NCBI GenBank assembly: GCA_025963725.1
Contig: JAOQAE010000002.1
Coordinates: forward strand, 1,668,411 to 1,732,410
DNA from: Bacteroidota bacterium
GTDB lineage: Bacteria; Bacteroidota; Bacteroidia; 2-12-FULL-35-15
Reading direction: 5' to 3'
Length of the DNA stretch: 64,000 nt
Part shown: positions 41,109 to 50,873 of the stretch, piece after piece
Layout of the letters: each line of letters begins with the position of its first letter
How positions within the stretch are numbered: position 1 is the stretch's first letter
The notes under the pieces: model-generated
Databases searched by the model: none
Told to the model about the DNA's origin: nothing
The model's input: only the letters and a program-made list of their open reading frames with translations
Translations under genes and position numbers: made by a program

Positions 41109-44100
41109 TTATTGCTTGTGCTCCTTATCAGCTTTTTCCTTTTCAAGGTCAATTACGATCGGAGTTGCAATGCAGATCGAAGAATAGGTACCGATAACGA
41201 TACCGATCAGCAATGCGAAGGAGAATCCTTTGATGGTTTCGCCACCGAAGATAAAGATCGCAAGTAATACGAAGAAGATGGTTAAGGATGTATTGATAGT
41301 ACGGCTTAATGTACTGTTCAATGCAAAGTTGATCACTCGTTCACGCTCGTTCTTATCAAGGTCGGATTTGTTGCGCTCCGTAAGGTATTCACGGATCCTG
41401 TCGAACACAACCACCGTATCCGTCATCGAGTAGCTCATTACGGTTAAGATCGCCGCGATGAAATCCTGCGTGATCTCCAATGAGAATGGCAGGATGCCGT
41501 CGAAGATCAGGTAGAAGGAAAGAACGATGGCAACGTCGTGGAATAAAGCCACAACCGCACCAAGACCGTACTGCCATTTCTTAAAGCGGACGAAGATGAA
41601 CACGAACATCACGAGGCAGGACAACAATACCGCCCAGATCGCTTTTGCCTTAATGTCGCGGGAAACTGTTTCACCCACCTTATCGGATGACATGATGTGT
41701 CCGTTTCCGCCAACCTGCTGCAGCCCTTCCTTCAGCTTTGTCTCCACTTTTGCTTCCGCATCATCCGAAGCATCCTCGATCAGGTAAGTGGTGGTGATCC
41801 TCATACGTGTGTTTGAGCCGTATGTTTTTACTTCAGGGGCTTCACCGAAAGAGGTGGTAAGCGCTTTGTTCACGTCTTCGGTAGACCTGAGCTCGTCAAA
41901 CTGCACCACATAGGAGCGGCCTCCTTTAAAGTCGACACCCAGGCTGAACCCGCCTTTTTTCACATAGCAGAAGATCCCTGCAACAATGATCAGTCCGGAG
42001 AACAGGTAGTACATTTTACGTTTTCCAACGAAGTTGATGTTGATCTTTTTAAATGCATTCTCTGTCATTGAGTTGGAGAATGTGATCACTTTATTCTTGT
42101 TCAGCCAGCGGTCAAACACCAGTCGCGTGATGAAGATCGCGCAGAACAGGGAGGAAATGATACCGATGATGAGCGTGGTTGCAAAGCCCTGGATAGGCCC
42201 TGTACCGAATACAAAAAGGATGATACCTAATAATAAGCCGGTAACGTGTGAATCGATCACCGATGACATTGCATTTTTATAACCTTCCTTGATGGCCATG
42301 GCAGTTGTTTTGCCAAGCGCCAGCTCCTCTCGCACGCGCTCGAAGATCAGGATGTTCGCATCCACCGACATCGCAATGGTAAGTACGATACCGGCAATAC
42401 CCGGTAATGTTAATACAGCCTGGAAGGATGCAAGGATCCCGATCACGAAGAAGTTGTTGATGATCATGGCAAGATCGGCAACCCAGCCGGCCTTGTTATA
42501 ATAGAAGCCCATGAACAGGAACACGAGGATCACCGCTATAACAGTAGAGAGCAATCCTTTGCTTACCGCTTCAGCTCCCAATACAGGGCCTACAACAGTT
42601 TCCTGTACGATGTGAGCGGTAGCAGGCAGTTTACCTGCTTTCAGGATGTTCACTAAATCGTCTGCTTCTTCATTCGAGAAATTACCGGTGATGGAAGAAA
42701 CGCCGCCGGCGATCTCATTCTGAACGGTAGGGAATGAATACACGCTGTTATCAAGAACGATGGCGATCGATTTGCCGATATTTTCCCTTGTAAGGCGCTT
42801 CCACTCCTGTCCGGCCTCAGCCGTCATCGACATGGAGATCTGCGGAGATCCGCCGCCGGCCTGGTCAAATACTTTACGTGCATCTGTAATGATATCGCCC
42901 GACAATGGAGCTTTGCCTTCCCTGTTTGTTACGCGGATCGCGATCAGCTGAACAGTGGTTTCTTCCTTATCAAATGCTTTAAATGTCCATAAGAACTTAG
43001 TGCCTTTTTTGAAGATCGCTTTTACTTTCGGATTGCTCAGGTACTCATTTACTTTTCCTGTATCGCTGATCGCAGAGTAACCTACAACCGGGCCGCGTCC
43101 GAGAACCGGCTGTCCTTTTTCATCACGTCCGATCGCTGCGCTTAACACTGCGAACAACGGATTTTCCTTACGAAGGCGTGCAATAGTATCGGCTTTTGTT
43201 TCGCCTGCTTTGTTTGAATCGCCCTTCACCGTTTCTTTACCCAACTGTGCGGATAATGATTTGGCTGAATCGGTTGGTGATTTCAGCGTGTCGGTTTTCG
43301 CCAGCTTCGGATCAACAACCAATGGCTTTATTAAAGAATCTCCTTTGCCTGCAACGGTATTGGTATCGGCCGGTGAAAGGATTTCTTTTAAACGTGTATT
43401 CGCCTTATCGAGCAAAGGATAGATCTCCTCGTTGTCGTAAGTTTCCCAGAACTCGAGGTTAGCGGTTCCCTGTAACAATTTACGTACGCGCTCCTTGTCG
43501 GTTACACCCGGCAATTCAATAAGGATACGGCCGGAAGAAGCAAGGCGCTGGATGTTTGGCTGTGTTACACCAAATTTATCGATACGTGCGCGCAATGTGT
43601 TTTCGGAAGTTGCAATGGCATCCTCGATGCGCTCGCGTAAGAACTTCAACACATCCTCGTTGGAAGTGTTAAAATCAACCTTGCCTTTTAATTCAATGGT
43701 CTGGAAGTTAATTGCCAGCTTTCCGCCCGGGTTCAGCTTATTGAACTCTTCGCCGAAAATGGTCACGAAATCCTTGGTGGATGTTCTCTGAACTTCTTTC
43801 GCTTTTGCGAGTGCCGCTAAAAATGAAGGCTCGTTGCTGTTGTTGGATAATCCCTTGATGATCTCGGCAACGGAAACTTCAAGCGTTACGTTCATACCGC
43901 CTTTTAAGTCGAGGCCAAGGTTCAGCTGGCGCTTTTTAACGTCATCGTACGTGTATTGGGCAATGCCAAGGTCGATCACCGTTTTTCTTTTCAGGGAATC
44001 GAGGTAGTAATTACGCCTTAAGTTCTTTACCGAGTCGAGGTAAGTGTTCTTAGAACTTGATTTCTGGGCTGCTTCAACCACATCTCCCTGTGCAATATAG

Positions 44101-44222
44101 TTATCGGCAAATGCATCCGCATCCTTCTCGATACCGTTTGCCACCCAGGTAAACATTAAATAATAAGCACAAGCGAGTGCCAGTAAGATCGCAAACAGCC
44201 TGATAACGCCTTTGTTCTGCAT
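41109..44222 (-). CDS. secDF: Protein translocase subunit SecDF (fused)
   Basis: 1037 aa, the SecD-SecF fusion usual in Bacteroidota. Inner-membrane accessory of SecYEG that uses the proton gradient to pull proteins out. SecD part: QLNLGLDLKGGMNVTLEV (about 100-118), a long periplasmic insertion (about 300-400) and SMSVDANILIFERVREELA; SecF part: LGVDFKGGRSYVVQFDELRS (about 755) and SYSMTDTVVVFDRIREYL. About 12 transmembrane helices. It supports the heavy export load implied by the many secreted proteins in the window. Confidence 0.96.
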   Translation of the reverse strand: MQNKGVIRLFAILLALACAYYLMFTWVANGIEKDADAFADNYIAQGDVVEAAQKSSSKNTYLDSVKNLRRNYYLDSLKRKTVIDLGIAQYTYDDVKKRQLNLGLDLKGGMNVTLEVSVAEIIKGLSNNSNEPSFLAALAKAKEVQRTSTKDFVTIFGEEFNKLNPGGKLAINFQTIELKGKVDFNTSNEDVLKFLRERIEDAIATSENTLRARIDKFGVTQPNIQRLASSGRILIELPGVTDKERVRKLLQGTANLEFWETYDNEEIYPLLDKANTRLKEILSPADTNTVAGKGDSLIKPLVVDPKLAKTDTLKSPTDSAKSLSAQLGKETVKGDSNKAGETKADTIARLRKENPLFAVLSAAIGRDEKGQPVLGRGPVVGYSAISDTGKVNEYLSNPKVKAIFKKGTKFLWTFKAFDKEETTVQLIAIRVTNREGKAPLSGDIITDARKVFDQAGGGSPQISMSMTAEAGQEWKRLTRENIGKSIAIVLDNSVYSFPTVQNEIAGGVSSITGNFSNEEADDLVNILKAGKLPATAHIVQETVVGPVLGAEAVSKGLLSTVIAVILVFLFMGFYYNKAGWVADLAMIINNFFVIGILASFQAVLTLPGIAGIVLTIAMSVDANILIFERVREELALGKTTAMAIKEGYKNAMSSVIDSHVTGLLLGIILFVFGTGPIQGFATTLIIGIISSLFCAIFITRLVFDRWLNKNKVITFSNSMTENAFKKININFVGKRKMYYLFSGLIIVAGIFCYVKKGGFSLGVDFKGGRSYVVQFDELRSTEDVNKALTTSFGEAPEVKTYGSNTRMRITTTYLIEDASDDAEAKVETKLKEGLQQVGGNGHIMSSDKVGETVSRDIKAKAIWAVLLSCLVMFVFIFVRFKKWQYGLGAVVALFHDVAIVLSFYLIFDGILPFSLEITQDFIAAILTVMSYSMTDTVVVFDRIREYLTERNKSDLDKNERERVINFALNSTLSRTINTSLTIFFVLLAIFIFGGETIKGFSFALLIGIVIGTYSSICIATPIVIDLEKEKADKEHKQ

Positions 44223-44309
44223 AATTGTGATTAATTAAAATTTGTATTGGTTCCAGGTTAACAAGCAGCTGATCTGCTTATTTAACACTCTGATTTTTAA
44301 ATAAGGGTG

Positions 44310-44341
44310 CAAATATAGAATAACAATTATTATTTACCAAT
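44310..44341 (-). promoter_or_regulatory. Likely promoter of secDF
   Basis: Minus strand -7 element TATATTTG (44310-44317), perfect, with ATTG 20 nt upstream (44338-44341). Expected start about 80 nt before the ATG. Confidence 0.5.
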
Positions 44342-44407
44342 TTTATCCGCTTTTTGGCTCATTATAACAAAACGGGGCTGATTTTAGGCACAATCATACC
44401 AATTGCT

Positions 44408-44415
44408 TAGCTTTG
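44408..44415 (+). promoter_or_regulatory. -7 element of the VCBS/P-domain gene
   Basis: TAGCTTTG matches TAnnTTTG perfectly; expected start about 13 nt before the ATG at 44435. The -33 position reads TAGG, not TTTG. Confidence 0.45.
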
Positions 44416-44434
44416 TAATACTTATCAGCACGCC

Positions 44435-47230
44435 ATGAAACGGATCCTTTACTTTTTCGCCCTTCTCCCCGCCTTCATTCTTTCGGAGAAAATAACTGCA
44501 CAGCCTTTTTTCCAGCGGTACGACAGCGTAGACGTGAAGATCAACTCAAATTTTGTGGACAATCCCTGGGCAGGCGGACTTAATTTCGCACAGAACTCAC
44601 AGATCGACCTGAACATGGACGGCATCAAGGACCTTTTTACCTTCGACCGTACCGGCAACAAGATCCGCACCTTCATTAACCGCGGAACGGCAGGCATGGT
44701 GGATTATAAATACGATGCATCCTACGAAAGCAAATTCCCGAAGCTCCAGGAATGGGCATTGCTGTACGATTATAACAACGACGGGCTCGAGGACATTTTC
44801 TCCTACTCCTGGGCAAGCGGCGGATTCGATGTATATAAGAACATATCTACCGTGGCGGGCGGACTCCAGTTCCAGCTGATCGTTACACAGCAGAAATCAC
44901 TTTTTAACCCGAGCAGGTTCAACAATTCGGCGGCATCCATTCCCGATGGCGGCGTAAGCGCGGGCTGGGACGGCGTTTCGGGAAGCTCCGGAAGCTTTGC
45001 AAGCCGCGTGATCAACGTAACCAGCCTTGTTGTAAGCAACTGGCACCTCACCTCTGTTTGCCTCAACATCAATCATCCGAATGATGATGACCTGATCGTT
45101 TACCTCGTGAACCCCTGCGGAAATAAATTGCGCCTGATCAAAAATGCAGGCGGCGGCGGAAGCAATTTTACCAATACCTGCTTCGAGCCCGGAGCTACCA
45201 ATGTGATCGGCTCTGCCGGATCGAACACCGCGCCTTTTTCCGCATCCTATGCACCCGAAGCAGGCCCCGGCGCATGGGCAGCATTCCTTGCCTGCGGCAG
45301 TCCGAACGGATTATGGTACCTCAACGTTGGCGACCAGACTCCCGGCGGTACCGGAACGCTTGCCAACTGGGCGATCACCTTTTATTCCCCGATCCCTTCC
45401 GGCCCCATCGGCCTCACCAACTTATATGTTAGCTCGGTCGACCTTCCCGCCTTATCGGATATCGATAACGACGGCGACATGGACGTAGTGACCTTTGTAA
45501 GCACCGGTACTTTCCTCGAATACCACCAGAACATGAGCATGGAGTTTTACGGTGTGCCGGACAGCCTTGTGTTCATGTCGAAAAGCCACTGCTGGGGAAA
45601 TGCCATGGAAGACCCCCTGAACAACGATTACACACTGCATTCGAGCTGCGCCAATGTTTCCAACCCCGGGATCATCGAGCACAGCGACGGCCACCGCTCC
45701 TACGAACGGCATTCGGGCTCCTGCCAGCTGTGTATCGATCTGGATAACGATGGCGACAAGGAATTCATCGTTGGCGATGTTTCATTCTCCAACCTTACAA
45801 TGCTTACCAATGGCGGAACTCCGAAGGCTGCCAATTTCACGGCAGTGGATACGCAGTTCCCCGAGAACAATACAAGCACCCTGCCGGTAGAGCTGACGCT
45901 TTTCCCCTGCGCTTATTATTTCGATGTGAATAACGACAGCCTCAAAGACCTGATCGTAACTCCCAACTCGCCCAGCCTCGCGGAAAATTTTAACTCGGAA
46001 GTGTATTACCAGAATATCGGGAGCAATGAAGTTCCGGTGTTCGATTACCAGCAATCCAACTTTTTACAGGATAACATGATCGAGGTAGGCGAAGGCGCAT
46101 ACCCTGTATTCTTCGATTATGACAACGACGGACTGAAAGATCTTTTCATCGGGAACTACGGTTATTTTGTGGCTCCTTCCTCTTATACGCATAAGATCGC
46201 GCAGTTCAAAAACATCGGCACTTCCACTGTTCCGAAGTTCGAGCTCATCAGCCGCGATTATGACGGCTTCGACGGGACACTCGCTCCGCTCAGCACCCTT
46301 GGCCTCATCAACATGATCCCGACCTTTGGCGATATGGATGGTGATGGCGATTCCGACATGTTCATCGGCGGACATAACGGAAGGGTTCATTATTTCCGGA
46401 ATGTTGCCGCTGCGGGAGCCCTTGCCAAATTTGTACTGGTGCAGCCTAATTTCAGGGATTCATCCAACGACTCGATCGATGTTGGCGACTTCGCAGCCCC
46501 GCAGATCTTTGATGTGGATAACGATGGAAAGAACGACCTTGTGATCGGCGGAAGAAACGGAAAATTCAGCTACTTCCATCATTCCGGAAGTGCAACAGCA
46601 GCAATTCCGGTGCTGGACTCTGCCAGCAACTTTTTCGGGCATGTGAAAGTGAACCAGCCTTCGTATTTTACGGGATACAGCCATCCTTTCATGTTCAGGC
46701 AGGCAGGCGTCACCAAATTATTATCAGGCTCGGAGCTTGGATACCTGAAGCTGTTCGACCATATCGACGGCAACCTCAATGGTACCTTCGGACTTGCGGA
46801 TTCTGCAGTGATGGGCGTACGCGAAGGTGAGCGCACCTCCGTATGCGGCACCGACCTTAACAACGACGGCTATCTTGATCTTGTGGTAGGGAATTACCAG
46901 GGCGGCGTTGCTTTCTTTAAAGGAGTAAGCGCACTCAGCACTTCCGACAATATAGGCAGCAACAGCCACTGGAACATGGAAGCATTCCCGAACCCGGCCA
47001 ACAACATGCTGAACATTGTGATCCGTAATGATAACCACAGCAATTACCGCGTTGAGCTTTTCAATGTAATGGGACAATTGGTATTTTCAGAGCAGACAGC
47101 AAGCACCTCTTTTGCGCTCAGCACAGAGCATTTCGAACCGGGAGTGTACATCTGCAAAGTTACAGAAACCGGCACTGAAGGAAAGATAAAAGCGGGAGCG
47201 ATTGCAAAACGCATTATCATTCAGCACTAA
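44435..47230 (+). CDS. Secreted VCBS/FG-GAP beta-propeller protein with nested P-domain and T9SS type A signal
   Basis: 931 aa. Signal peptide (about 1-22, ending KITAQ). FG-GAP/VCBS calcium-binding repeats (DLNMDGIKDLFTFD, DIDNDGDMDVV, DNDGLKDLFIGNYG, DVDNDGKNDLVIGGRNG, DLNNDGYLDLVVGNY). Between the early repeats lies a proprotein-convertase P-type domain (about 160-325: DDDLIVYLVNPCGNKLRLI, NGLWYLNVGDQTPGGTGTLA). C-terminus is a T9SS type A domain from MEAFPNPANNMLNIVI, with PGVYICKV. Probably displayed or released at the cell surface. No catalytic motif is seen. Confidence 0.82.
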   Translation: MKRILYFFALLPAFILSEKITAQPFFQRYDSVDVKINSNFVDNPWAGGLNFAQNSQIDLNMDGIKDLFTFDRTGNKIRTFINRGTAGMVDYKYDASYESKFPKLQEWALLYDYNNDGLEDIFSYSWASGGFDVYKNISTVAGGLQFQLIVTQQKSLFNPSRFNNSAASIPDGGVSAGWDGVSGSSGSFASRVINVTSLVVSNWHLTSVCLNINHPNDDDLIVYLVNPCGNKLRLIKNAGGGGSNFTNTCFEPGATNVIGSAGSNTAPFSASYAPEAGPGAWAAFLACGSPNGLWYLNVGDQTPGGTGTLANWAITFYSPIPSGPIGLTNLYVSSVDLPALSDIDNDGDMDVVTFVSTGTFLEYHQNMSMEFYGVPDSLVFMSKSHCWGNAMEDPLNNDYTLHSSCANVSNPGIIEHSDGHRSYERHSGSCQLCIDLDNDGDKEFIVGDVSFSNLTMLTNGGTPKAANFTAVDTQFPENNTSTLPVELTLFPCAYYFDVNNDSLKDLIVTPNSPSLAENFNSEVYYQNIGSNEVPVFDYQQSNFLQDNMIEVGEGAYPVFFDYDNDGLKDLFIGNYGYFVAPSSYTHKIAQFKNIGTSTVPKFELISRDYDGFDGTLAPLSTLGLINMIPTFGDMDGDGDSDMFIGGHNGRVHYFRNVAAAGALAKFVLVQPNFRDSSNDSIDVGDFAAPQIFDVDNDGKNDLVIGGRNGKFSYFHHSGSATAAIPVLDSASNFFGHVKVNQPSYFTGYSHPFMFRQAGVTKLLSGSELGYLKLFDHIDGNLNGTFGLADSAVMGVREGERTSVCGTDLNNDGYLDLVVGNYQGGVAFFKGVSALSTSDNIGSNSHWNMEAFPNPANNMLNIVIRNDNHSNYRVELFNVMGQLVFSEQTASTSFALSTEHFEPGVYICKVTETGTEGKIKAGAIAKRIIIQH

Positions 47231-47260
47231 AAATTTGCCGTTGCTCAGGCGATTTTAATA

Positions 47261-47477
47261 ATTCGCTCCTCCGGAGCTCTCCGGGTGTTTGCGAATTTCA
47301 TGCAATTAATAAGATACTCCTCCGGAGTATTTGCCGCTATCCTGTAATGTTTACAGGCCGCTCCTATGGAGCTTGAAAAAATGCACTCTATTGTTTCTAT
47401 AAACAGAGCGCTCCTACGGAGCTGCCCGACCGTCGGATTGATTATTGCTAAGGCTTACGAACCGACCTTGTAAAACA
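47261..47477 (+). repeat. Direct repeat unit 1 (217 bp)
   Basis: Contains GCTCCTCCGGAGC, ACTCCTCCGGAGT, GCTCCTATGGAGC and GCTCCTACGGAGC in that order, with TTTCTATAAACAGAG between the last two. Nearly identical to unit 2. Confidence 0.8.
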
Positions 47478-47696
47478 ATTCGCTCCTCCGGAGCCTCTCC
47501 TGGTGTTTGCGGATTTCATGCAATTAATAATATACTCCTCCGGAGTATTTGCCGCTATCCTGTAATGTTTACAGGCCGCTCCTATGGAGCTTGAAAAAAA
47601 CGCACTCTATTGTTTCTATAAACAGAGCGCTCCTACGGAGCTGCCCGCCCGTCGGATTGATTATTGCTAAGGCTTACGAACCGACCCTGTAAAACA
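47478..47696 (+). repeat. Direct repeat unit 2 (219 bp)
   Basis: Same four hairpins as unit 1; differs at a handful of bases and by small length changes (for example one A in the AAAAAA run). Confidence 0.8.
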
Positions 47697-47821
47697 ATTC
47701 GCTCCTCCCGGAGCCTCTCCGGGTGTTTGCGGATCTCATGCAATTAATAAGATACTCCTCCGGAGCATTTGCCGCTATCCTGTAATGTTTACAGGTCGCT
47801 CCTATGGAGCTGCCCGCCCGT
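47697..47821 (+). repeat. Direct repeat unit 3, internally deleted
   Basis: Matches units 1-2 to GCTCCTATGGAGCT, then jumps straight to GCCCGCCCGT. The missing part lies exactly between the TAT and TAC hairpins, as expected for recombination or slippage between the two GGAGCT arms. Confidence 0.75.
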
Positions 47822-47876
47822 GAAATTAAATTATAATGCTTGTATTAACACCGGTATTAAGCCCTGTAGGGGCGGC

Positions 47877-48024
47877 CTGTTTGTTGCATCATTATGCCCT
47901 GATGCCTCTCAAGCTCCATAGGAGCGGCCTGTTGCCGAATATATTCTATTGCTCCGGAGGAGCATATTATTAATAACAAAAACCTCCATTAATTCAAGAG
48001 CTCCGGAGGAGCGAATTATTAATC
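47877..48024 (-). repeat. Inverted, diverged copy of the repeat
   Basis: Read on the minus strand it gives ATTCGCTCCTCCGGAGCT, GCTCCTCCGGAGC, AACAGGCCGCTCCTATGGAG, CTTGA: the same order as in the direct units with different spacers. Forms the right arm of the element. Confidence 0.6.
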
Positions 48025-48051
48025 CCGGATTATTTCTACCTTTACATCGTA

Positions 48052-48366
48052 ATGCAAAAGCAGCTGAAAAAATATTTTCCTTTTCTTTTTTTGTTCCTCT
48101 TCCTGTTCCCGGTGGTGGAAAAGCAATTGCATGCTTTTGAGCACCGCGATGAAGCGCATTGCTCAGCTACCGACAAACATTTTCATGAGCAGGAGCACAA
48201 TTGTTCGATCTGTGATTTCACTGCAACAGATTCGGCCACGGGAGCAGAGAACCGCTTTTCATTTGTCATCGCAGAAACCAACCACGCTTACAATCCTTTC
48301 ACTGACTATGTAAGCAGCATTTCCACGCTATTACATTTACCTTCCAGGGCTCCTCCTGTTGCCTGA
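48052..48366 (+). CDS. Small exported Cys/His-rich protein, possible metal binder
   Basis: 104 aa. N-terminal hydrophobic segment (about 8-24) acts as signal or anchor. The following part (about 28-60) has a dense His/Cys array, HRDEAHC, HFHEQEHNCSICDF, which could bind a transition metal. The rest is not recognised. It lies 68 bp upstream of the TonB receptor. Small proteins with such motifs often precede TonB receptors in Bacteroidota, so a shared metal-related role is inferred. Start is the ATG at 48052; TACCTTTA (48037-48044) is a near-match to a -7 box. Confidence 0.65.
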   Translation: MQKQLKKYFPFLFLFLFLFPVVEKQLHAFEHRDEAHCSATDKHFHEQEHNCSICDFTATDSATGAENRFSFVIAETNHAYNPFTDYVSSISTLLHLPSRAPPVA

Positions 48367-48434
48367 TCTGATTTTTATTCCCTGATGAGATCCTCATCGG
48401 AACATTCTTTATCTGATCAGTCAACATTTATTTC

Positions 48435-50873
48435 ATGAAAAAATTATTTTATCTGCCGGCAGCAGCATTGCTGTTTTTGCCCTTTATTATCTTTTCCGCG
48501 CCCTTCCCGGGCAATGGAAAAACTTCGCTGTCGGGAAAAGTTACCGATAAGCAAACCGGGGCAACAATACCGGGCGTTGCTATTTATTTCCCCGATATGA
48601 AAACCGGTGCGGTTACAAACGCAGAGGGAATTTACCTCGTCGATAATCTCCCTCAGAAAAAGCTGCTCGTGCAGGTAAGCTTTCTCGGCTACAAAACCAT
48701 TATTGAAACCATCGATCTTTCCATTACTACCTTAAAGGATTTCGCGATGGAGGTCTCCGTAAAGGAAATCAATGAAGTGGTGATCACGGGCCATTCGCAG
48801 GCCGGCGAAAGGAACAGGACGCCAACGCCCGTAAGCAGCATTTCAAAAGTTGAGCTGCTCCAGAATTCTTCCGCCAACATCATCGATGCCATTGCGAAAC
48901 AGCCCGGCATTTCACAGATCACCACCGGCTCCGGAATTTCCAAGCCGGTGATCCGCGGGCTTGGCTATAACCGCGTGGTGGTGGTGAACGACGGCATCCG
49001 GCAGGAAGGACAGCAATGGGGCGACGAGCATGGAATTGAGATTGACGAGTTCACGGTGAATAAGATCGAGATCCTGAAAGGGCCGGCCAGCTTATCATAC
49101 GGCTCGGATGCAATTGCAGGCGTGATCAACATGCTGTCTGAAACCACCATACCGCAGGGAAAGATCGGCGCGGGACTGATCGCGAATTACCAGAGCAACA
49201 ACGGCGCAGTCGGCTATTCCGCGAACATCGCGGGGAACTTAAAAGGAGTGATCTGGAATATACGCTACAGCAACAAGCTTGCACACGCTTACAAGAACAG
49301 GTACGACGGCTATGTGTACAATTCGGGCTTTAAGGAAAACACGGTCAGCGGCGTGTTCGGGCTGAACAAGGCATGGGGCTATTCGCACCTGCATTTCAGC
49401 GTTTATGATTTTAATCCCGGCCTCGTGGAAGGTGCACGTGACAGCGCTACCGGGAAGTTCATAAGGCCTGTTGCCGTAAATGACAGCACGGAAGGTACTG
49501 AGATCGTTGACAACGAAGGCCTCCGCTCTTACGACATTGGTATTCCTTACCAAAAGATCTCCCACTACAAGGCCACGCTGAACAACAGCTTTTTTGTGGG
49601 CAACGGAAGCATCAAGGCCATTGTAGGATTTCAGCAGAACCACCGCAAGGAGTATGGCAATGTGCTGAAGCCGGATGCATTCGGACTGTATTTCTTAATG
49701 AATACGATCAACTACGACCTTCGTTACATCCTGCCGGAGAGGAATGGCTGGGATATTTCATTCGGTGCAAACGGCATGCAGCAGAATTCACAGAACAAAG
49801 GCACTGAGTTCCTTGTTCCCGAATACAGCCTCTTTGATATCGGCGCTTTCGGGATCATAAAAAAATCGTTCAGCAAGCTCGATATCAGCGGCGGATTGCG
49901 TTACGATACACGCAGCGAAAAAACAAAAGACCTTTACCTGGATGCCAATGGTGAAAAAACAAACACGCCCGACACCAGCTCCTACCGCCAATTCTCAGCC
50001 ATCAGCGAAATGTTTTCCGGCGTTTCGGGAAGCATTGGCGCCACGTACCAATTCTCAGAAAAGCTATTTGTAAAGCTGAATGCGGCACGCGGATACCGTG
50101 CCCCGAACATCGGGGAGCTGGGCAGCAACGGCGTGCATGAAGGCACCATGCGCTACGAGATGGGAAATGCGCAGCTGAAGCCGGAAACCAGCTTCCAGGC
50201 CGATCTTTCACTGGGGCTGAACACGGAGCATATCACAGCCGAGATCGACCTGTTTAATAATTCGATCGACCACTTTATTTTTTCGCGCAAGCTGAACAGC
50301 GCGTTTGGCGGCGATTCCATACGTGATGGCATGAGGGCGTTCCAGTTTGTTTCGGGCAATGCAAATTTATCGGGCGGCGAGATCATGGTCGACATTCATC
50401 CGCACCCGCTCGACTGGCTGCACTTCGAGAACTCATTTTCGTATGTGCTGGCGATCCAGCACGGGCAGCCGGACTCCACAAAATACTTACCCTTCACACC
50501 TGCCCCCAAGCTGGAATCGGAGCTGCGCGCCGATATTAAAAAGGCTGGAAAACACATGAGCAATGCATTTATTAAGATCGGGCTGGAGAATTATTTTGCA
50601 CAGAATAATTTTTATTCCGCATACGGAACCGAAACCGCAACACCTGCATACATGTTGCTGAATGCGGGAATCGGGACAACTTTTATTTCCGGTGATAAAA
50701 CCATCTGCTCCTTTTTTATCAATGTGAACAACCTTACGGATGTTGCTTATCAGAGCCATTTAAGCCGACTGAAATACGGGGAGATGAACTATGCCACCGG
50801 GAGGACAGGCATTTACAACATGGGAAGGAATTTCAGCTTTAAGCTGCTGATCCCGCTCGACCTGAAAAAATAA
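48435..50873 (+). CDS. TonB-dependent outer-membrane receptor
   Basis: 812 aa. Signal peptide (about 1-26), carboxypeptidase-regulatory-like domain (about 32-115, SLSGKVTDKQTGATIPGVAI), plug domain (about 125-235: VSSISKVELLQNSSANIIDA, VIRGLGYNRVVVVNDGIRQE, IEILKGPASLSYGSDAIAGV), and a 22-strand-type barrel ending in NFSFKLLIPLDLKK. It imports a bound substrate across the outer membrane with energy from TonB. No SusD partner follows, which speaks against a glycan role; the neighbours suggest a metal or metallophore (inference). A weak terminator follows. Confidence 0.93.
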   Translation: MKKLFYLPAAALLFLPFIIFSAPFPGNGKTSLSGKVTDKQTGATIPGVAIYFPDMKTGAVTNAEGIYLVDNLPQKKLLVQVSFLGYKTIIETIDLSITTLKDFAMEVSVKEINEVVITGHSQAGERNRTPTPVSSISKVELLQNSSANIIDAIAKQPGISQITTGSGISKPVIRGLGYNRVVVVNDGIRQEGQQWGDEHGIEIDEFTVNKIEILKGPASLSYGSDAIAGVINMLSETTIPQGKIGAGLIANYQSNNGAVGYSANIAGNLKGVIWNIRYSNKLAHAYKNRYDGYVYNSGFKENTVSGVFGLNKAWGYSHLHFSVYDFNPGLVEGARDSATGKFIRPVAVNDSTEGTEIVDNEGLRSYDIGIPYQKISHYKATLNNSFFVGNGSIKAIVGFQQNHRKEYGNVLKPDAFGLYFLMNTINYDLRYILPERNGWDISFGANGMQQNSQNKGTEFLVPEYSLFDIGAFGIIKKSFSKLDISGGLRYDTRSEKTKDLYLDANGEKTNTPDTSSYRQFSAISEMFSGVSGSIGATYQFSEKLFVKLNAARGYRAPNIGELGSNGVHEGTMRYEMGNAQLKPETSFQADLSLGLNTEHITAEIDLFNNSIDHFIFSRKLNSAFGGDSIRDGMRAFQFVSGNANLSGGEIMVDIHPHPLDWLHFENSFSYVLAIQHGQPDSTKYLPFTPAPKLESELRADIKKAGKHMSNAFIKIGLENYFAQNNFYSAYGTETATPAYMLLNAGIGTTFISGDKTICSFFINVNNLTDVAYQSHLSRLKYGEMNYATGRTGIYNMGRNFSFKLLIPLDLKK

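Follow-up and report, generated by a model that had tools for sequence, protein, structure and literature searches.

A REP-like hairpin array in a Bacteroidota genome and its association with a single-copy Y1 transposase gene

The window analysed here is a 64-kb stretch of DNA (64,000 nucleotides) from a Bacteroidota bacterium, in which the genes for SecDF, a T9SS-type protein, a 104-aa His/Cys-rich small protein, and a TonB-dependent receptor follow one another (positions 41109-50873 of the window), an order that several species of the genus share. Between the T9SS-type protein gene, which ends at 47230, and the small protein gene, which starts at 48052, lies an array of 15 short REP-like hairpins that read GCTCC-N3-GGAGC or nearly so. 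All 10 exact matches to this pattern in the 64-kb window fall within the array, against an expectation of 0.08 and a maximum of one in dinucleotide shuffles. The loops differ from hairpin to hairpin (TCC, TAT, and TAC), just as the initial annotation of this DNA had remarked, and the hairpins carry one of two 5' flanks, AATAATnC (A-type) or AACAGGnC (B-type). They are grouped as same-direction doublets, either AA or BB, and the doublets make up arrays that are inverted and nested. Read along the window, the units are [AABB][AABB][AAB][bbaa], with lower case denoting inverted units (Table 1).

Table 1. Components of the hairpin array, in window coordinates
Feature	Position	Strand
Whole REP-like array, AABB AABB AAB(-B) bbaa, 15 hairpins	47251..48024	
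A doublet 1: A1 hairpin 47265-47277 (guide AATAATTC), A2 hairpin 47316-47328 (ACTCC..GGAGT), spacing 51	47257..47328	+
B doublet 1: 47360-47372 and 47410-47422 (with guides TACAGGCC / AACAGAGC), spacing 50	47352..47422	+
A doublet 2, a tandem copy with hairpins 47482-47494 and 47534-47546	47482..47546	+
B doublet 2, a tandem copy with hairpins 47578-47590 and 47629-47641	47578..47641	+
A doublet 3: hairpins 47701-47714 (4-nt loop, GCTCCTCCCGGAGC) and 47754-47766	47701..47766	+
Single B hairpin remaining after the hairpin-to-hairpin 51-bp deletion	47798..47810	+
Inverted B doublet: 47861-47873 (GCCCTGTAGGGGC, altered stem) and 47913-47925	47861..47925	-
Inverted A doublet: 47951-47963 and 48000-48012, with the outer hairpin as the right "28-bp arm"	47951..48012	-

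Direct repeats of 105-114 bp, spaced 218-220 bp apart, occur in the array, and the two full direct units of 217-219 bp reported initially were borne out as tandem copies (47265-47481 and 47482-47700) that are ~97% alike, inter-hairpin spacers included. The deletion said to run exactly from hairpin to hairpin in a third copy was likewise confirmed, one 51-bp hairpin-plus-spacer being absent such that 47798-47810 abuts TGCCCGCCC, the sequence located after the next hairpin in the remaining copies. The alleged inverted copy (47861-48012) held up only in its hairpin cores (~24 bp), which are the sole part in common with the direct units, whereas its spacers are unrelated to theirs. The spacers of different clusters in the genome are also mostly unrelated in sequence; given that the tandem units share theirs, the 217-219-bp units are best explained by local duplication. 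An AABB half would have been duplicated in tandem after insertion, and one 51-bp hairpin unit would have been deleted via hairpin-assisted slippage or recombination, as judged from spacer identity. The same tandem copies and the same deletion fit a repeat grown purely by slippage at palindromes or unequal recombination with no transposase involved, and growth of this kind, proposed in the initial annotation, does describe the local enlargement of the window copy. As a complete account it is most improbable, for it covers local growth only and leaves unexplained both the dispersal of some 25 clusters whose spacers are unrelated and the link to Y1 transposase genes described below.

The two ends of the array had been taken for the 28-bp inverted ends of a MITE-like element. 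Perfect inverted arms are indeed present (47255-47280 and 47997-48022, 26 nt, 100% identity), and together with the non-coding interior they are in line with a discrete MITE of ~770 bp, moved whole by a DDE-type transposase that acts on its terminal inverted repeats. These arms are, however, the first and last A-type hairpins with their flanks, a unit that recurs in ~38 copies in the genome, the interior of the array included, and is not specific to any one element. When the array was compared with the 4.79-Mb genome, 98 local matches were obtained, none exceeding ~180 bp except the array itself; no second full-length copy was found elsewhere in the genome, the best other match being ~170 bp at 77%. 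The 98 matches collapse to ~25 clusters, the window array among them, in which inverted pairs are frequent and the number and order of units vary.

A comparison with relatives, proposed in the initial annotation, provided an empty site. The gap that bears the array measures 824 bp here and 20, 49, 49, 96, and 357 bp in five syntenic relatives with the same gene order, the array being absent from all of them; as these relatives are different species, the comparison is one of presence and absence only and not of the exact junction. Neither precise excision nor a recent between-strain polymorphism was seen. No target duplication is visible at the two array ends, as expected for Y1 enzymes. The empty site would also suit a MITE, yet a single full-length copy, ends that recur inside the array, clusters of varying composition, and no visible target duplication together make that explanation scarcely credible.

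Across the genome, 181 CTCCnnnGGAG sites were counted, compared to 24 for a control with the pattern reversed, and all 99 clustered hairpins checked lie outside ORFs (of at least 120 aa), often just past genes. The usual cluster forms are BBbb, AAaa, and AABBbbaa. A compact BBbb with a centre of just 7-10 nt was found at four of the sites read in two relatives (G002 and G011), while both AAaa and AABBbbaa are present in a third (G014), which would fit the insertion of B units into the middle of A units. Two clusters are rearranged, one with an A hairpin after a single B hairpin (L035, 978-1063) and the other with an additional A-type hairpin at a distance of 258 bp from its neighbour (L041, 864-1227), and these could display intermediate steps. 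Separately, two contigs of the present assembly break within REP arrays, G000:C5 at its end (369484-369688, AABB) and G000:C3 at its start (17-93, aa); the two may be adjacent, with the assembly broken by the repeat.

A single gene of the Y1_Tnp family (PF01797) was found in the genome (G000:C6:383920-384378), which is also the sole match to its own protein. It is an intact ORF of 152 aa that starts 9 bp from an array of nine B-type hairpins, hairpins being kept only on its upstream side. An AlphaFold model of the protein (pLDDT 82) gave structural matches to ISDra2, to IS608, and to RAYT (4er8). The alignment shows no variation at the HUH histidines, Tyr115, or Gln119, and among the NCBIfam models IS200 scored above and RAYT below cut-off. 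The protein carries the motifs YILNQAEHH and EWQHG, and Y---Q--HH is found in 75 of 80 relatives. These motifs (WQ and Y---Q--HH), the length of ~150 aa, and the low copy number, rather than the HMMs of PMC6006769, place it in TnpAY1 subclass 1.2. Members of this subclass were described by Quentin et al. 2018 (PMC6006769) as having no REPs and generally no terminal hairpins of the IS200 type. At 79 of the 80 related loci, by contrast, at least one flank carries a hairpin. A transposase with ends matching the 28-bp arm had been envisaged, and the sole Y1 gene does adjoin an array of these hairpins; they are nevertheless of the B-type, and the enzyme is a single-strand HUH protein, not a DDE enzyme that binds terminal inverted repeats. 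This Y1 protein groups with those of A-type loci yet adjoins B-type hairpins. The idea of a separate present-day transposase for each of the two types was not borne out in this genome, which has only one Y1 gene. In another genome, a decayed relative of the transposase (G012:C118:135-557), now only fragments interrupted by TGA and TAG stops, remains beside two B-type hairpins and is apparently a dying REP locus.

The association was followed through 80 homologous Y1 loci, which are the closest relatives and come from Bacteroidota, Ignavibacteriota, and a few other phyla. CTCCnnnGGAG was found within 250 bp upstream of the gene in 72 of the 80 and downstream in 69; 62 loci have it on both sides, and a single locus lacks it altogether. 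Hairpin density is 5.5 per kb near the gene and 0.042 per kb beyond 1 kb, a 130-fold difference. On both sides the hairpins point outward, i.e., are inverted with respect to each other, and often form doublets. Two further locus sets were checked since the 80 loci represent closest relatives. With family genomes added, 99 of 109 upstream flanks had a hairpin, where shuffles gave 4.9 of 109, as did 93 of 106 flanks downstream, and in a class-wide sample of 28 loci it was present in 19 and 20 of the 28 flanks, respectively (1.2 in shuffles). Diverged Y1 genes are accompanied by other stems, including ACCCC..GGGGT, GTCCC..GGGAC, GAGCC..GGCTC, and more, whose arms match across the two sides of the gene at a rate of 0.83 versus 0.14 when permuted (loci without GCTCC) and of 0.69 versus 0.28 in the class-wide sample. 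Neighbouring hairpins in these sets are 47-56 nt apart in 86% of cases. Matched arms and a spacing of ~51 nt in diverged members indicate that the layout is general and the stem sequence lineage-specific. At two Y1 loci (L150 and L160, in G018 and G008), a longer third hairpin (CAACGGATTAAAATCCGTTG) is situated between the two members of the doublet, upstream and downstream of the gene alike, and similar three-hairpin layouts occur at L152 and L161.

Within the genus, at least 18 B-type hairpins (18-70 per genome) were found in five of the six species with a close Y1, a number reached in none of the 30 without one (36 species; Fisher p = 1.6e-5). A family pattern one base short (CAGNCNCTCC) matched almost nothing, and the corrected pattern was used in these genus counts. 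A-type hairpins are numerous only in the present genome (38) and in G014 (41), the two genomes that hold the Y1 clade of the query (tree support 100/87). The relatives carry one to five diverged Y1 copies. In a sample of 197 genomes of the class, the gene is present in 75, and more than two copies of the strict B pattern were found solely in the present genome; amplification on a large scale is exceptional even where the Y1 gene is present.

The doublet itself is tightly dimensioned. The start-to-start distance inside doublets is 51.2 +/- 1.3 bp (n = 61), the distance from an A to a B doublet 41.2 +/- 4.2 bp, and that across the array centre 67.9 +/- 27.9 bp. The ends of the spacer are conserved (TTGA ... 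GYTAYAAACAGG in B and TCTG ... GYTATTAATAAT in A), and its middle of roughly 18 nt is freely variable. Changes in the stem are mostly two-sided: the third pair is C-G in place of T-A 19 times, as opposed to three one-sided changes (T-G twice and C-A once), in a set for which at least three of the five pairs were required, such that variants with one pair broken were not excluded. On sequence grounds, this pattern of stem, flank, and spacing points to constraint acting on the hairpin, the guide, and the distance rather than on the letters of the spacer. A GYTAY upstream of the second hairpin might, at a guess, be a cleavage signal, in view of its conservation and its likeness to the TTAC of IS608.

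Stems conserved by two-sided changes while spacers decay, in hairpins that are all intergenic and often just past genes, might also be expected of regulatory or structural hairpins maintained by the host as RNA terminators, mRNA stabilisers, or protein-binding sites, which would be immobile and would neighbour the Y1 gene merely by sharing an intergenic location; REPs elsewhere have acquired such roles (PMC6006769). This explanation is unlikely, because the inverted association with Y1 is tight and phylum-wide, the stems change with the Y1 lineage, the hairpins are patchily distributed among close relatives with an empty site at the present locus, and an Rfam search of the window returned no RNA family match. 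A host role and mobility are not exclusive, and moved hairpins may have been co-opted.

The array is very probably of the REP/REPIN type, spread by a subclass-1.2 Y1 transposase that acts on single-stranded hairpins and then enlarged locally by tandem duplication. The basic unit comprises two hairpins of the same orientation at a distance of ~51 nt, both preceded by a short putative guide of type A or B; doublets are joined head to head in XXxx REPINs, and B-type REPINs are here nested centrally in A-type ones (AABBbbaa). The predicted substrates are single-stranded AACAGGCC-GCTCCTACGGAGC doublets. The transposase would bind hairpin and guide where the DNA is single-stranded, as in the lagging-strand template, its catalytic tyrosine would cut beside the bound hairpin, and REP units would be pasted into intergenic DNA with no duplication of the target. 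The initial suggestion of a non-autonomous mobile element survives in part, with ~25 dispersed clusters, an empty site, and a Y1 gene beside the same hairpins; what has to be given up is the classical MITE, the mobile unit being the REP doublet or REPIN and not the whole 774 bp.

Several known systems invite comparison. REP/BIME/REPIN sequences with their RAYT (TnpAREP), such as the E. coli REPtron (PMC6006769, PMC8266576, PMC3116915), are alike in that their hairpins are short, intergenic, and preceded by a guide-like flank, that the clusters are inverted, that intergenic copies are dispersed, and that a usually single-copy Y1 HUH gene lies between inverted hairpins; to this the fold match to RAYT 4er8 may be added. 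Canonical REPs, however, bear GT[AG]G at the 5' foot of the hairpin, where AACAGGnC or AATAATnC and no GTAG is found here, and their class 2 transposases bear Y---NP, where Y---Q--HH (YILNQ) is found; the unit also differs in being a same-direction doublet of ~51 nt. Given the departure in two tested features, the foot and the Y---NP motif, the most fitting name for the hairpins is REP-like, or else a REP system that belongs to another subclass of transposase. The traits of TnpAY1 subclass 1.2 (Quentin et al. 2018, PMC6006769) that recur here are WQ and Y---Q--HH, ~150 aa, low copy number, and richness in Bacteroidota. The IS200/IS605 family (IS608 and ISDra2) shares the HUH/Tyr fold, the Y---Q motif, and hairpins at both ends, but is recognised by multiple near-identical full-length transposase copies per genome; here, there is one copy, flanked in this group by outward inverted hairpin doublets on both sides, and many hairpin clusters are devoid of a gene. 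CGTC-tagged REPs (PMC3733652) are likewise short palindromes, mostly in inverted dimers, Bacteroidetes included, and were described as having no transposase association, but neither their 5' CGTC tag nor their CCA tail is present here. In the literature searched on REP/RAYT, the REPtron, subclass 1.2, Bacteroidetes/Flavobacterium, and the hairpin string itself, no description of these hairpins was found; one paper named a "RayT" near abeS in Chryseobacterium, with no mention of palindromes in its text.

Whether subclass 1.2 as a whole constitutes a separate REP system in Bacteroidota and their neighbours appears evenly balanced. The substrate of such a system would be a direct double hairpin with a fixed distance of ~51 nt, resembling the two ends of a minimal single-strand transposon that has a free cargo of ~18 nt; the stem and the guide would diversify along with the transposase, and guide types would nest within one genome. 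DNA partners are hereby assigned to a transposase subclass whose role had been open and for which an earlier phylogenomic survey had found none, and the enterobacterial and pseudomonad REP/RAYT systems would gain a widespread counterpart in Bacteroidota. The direct doublet of ~51 nt is a clear new constraint that can be tested in vitro, and the question of why REP hairpins stay tied to one single-copy HUH gene becomes testable in a group whose natural variation in stem, loop, and guide goes along with that of the enzyme.
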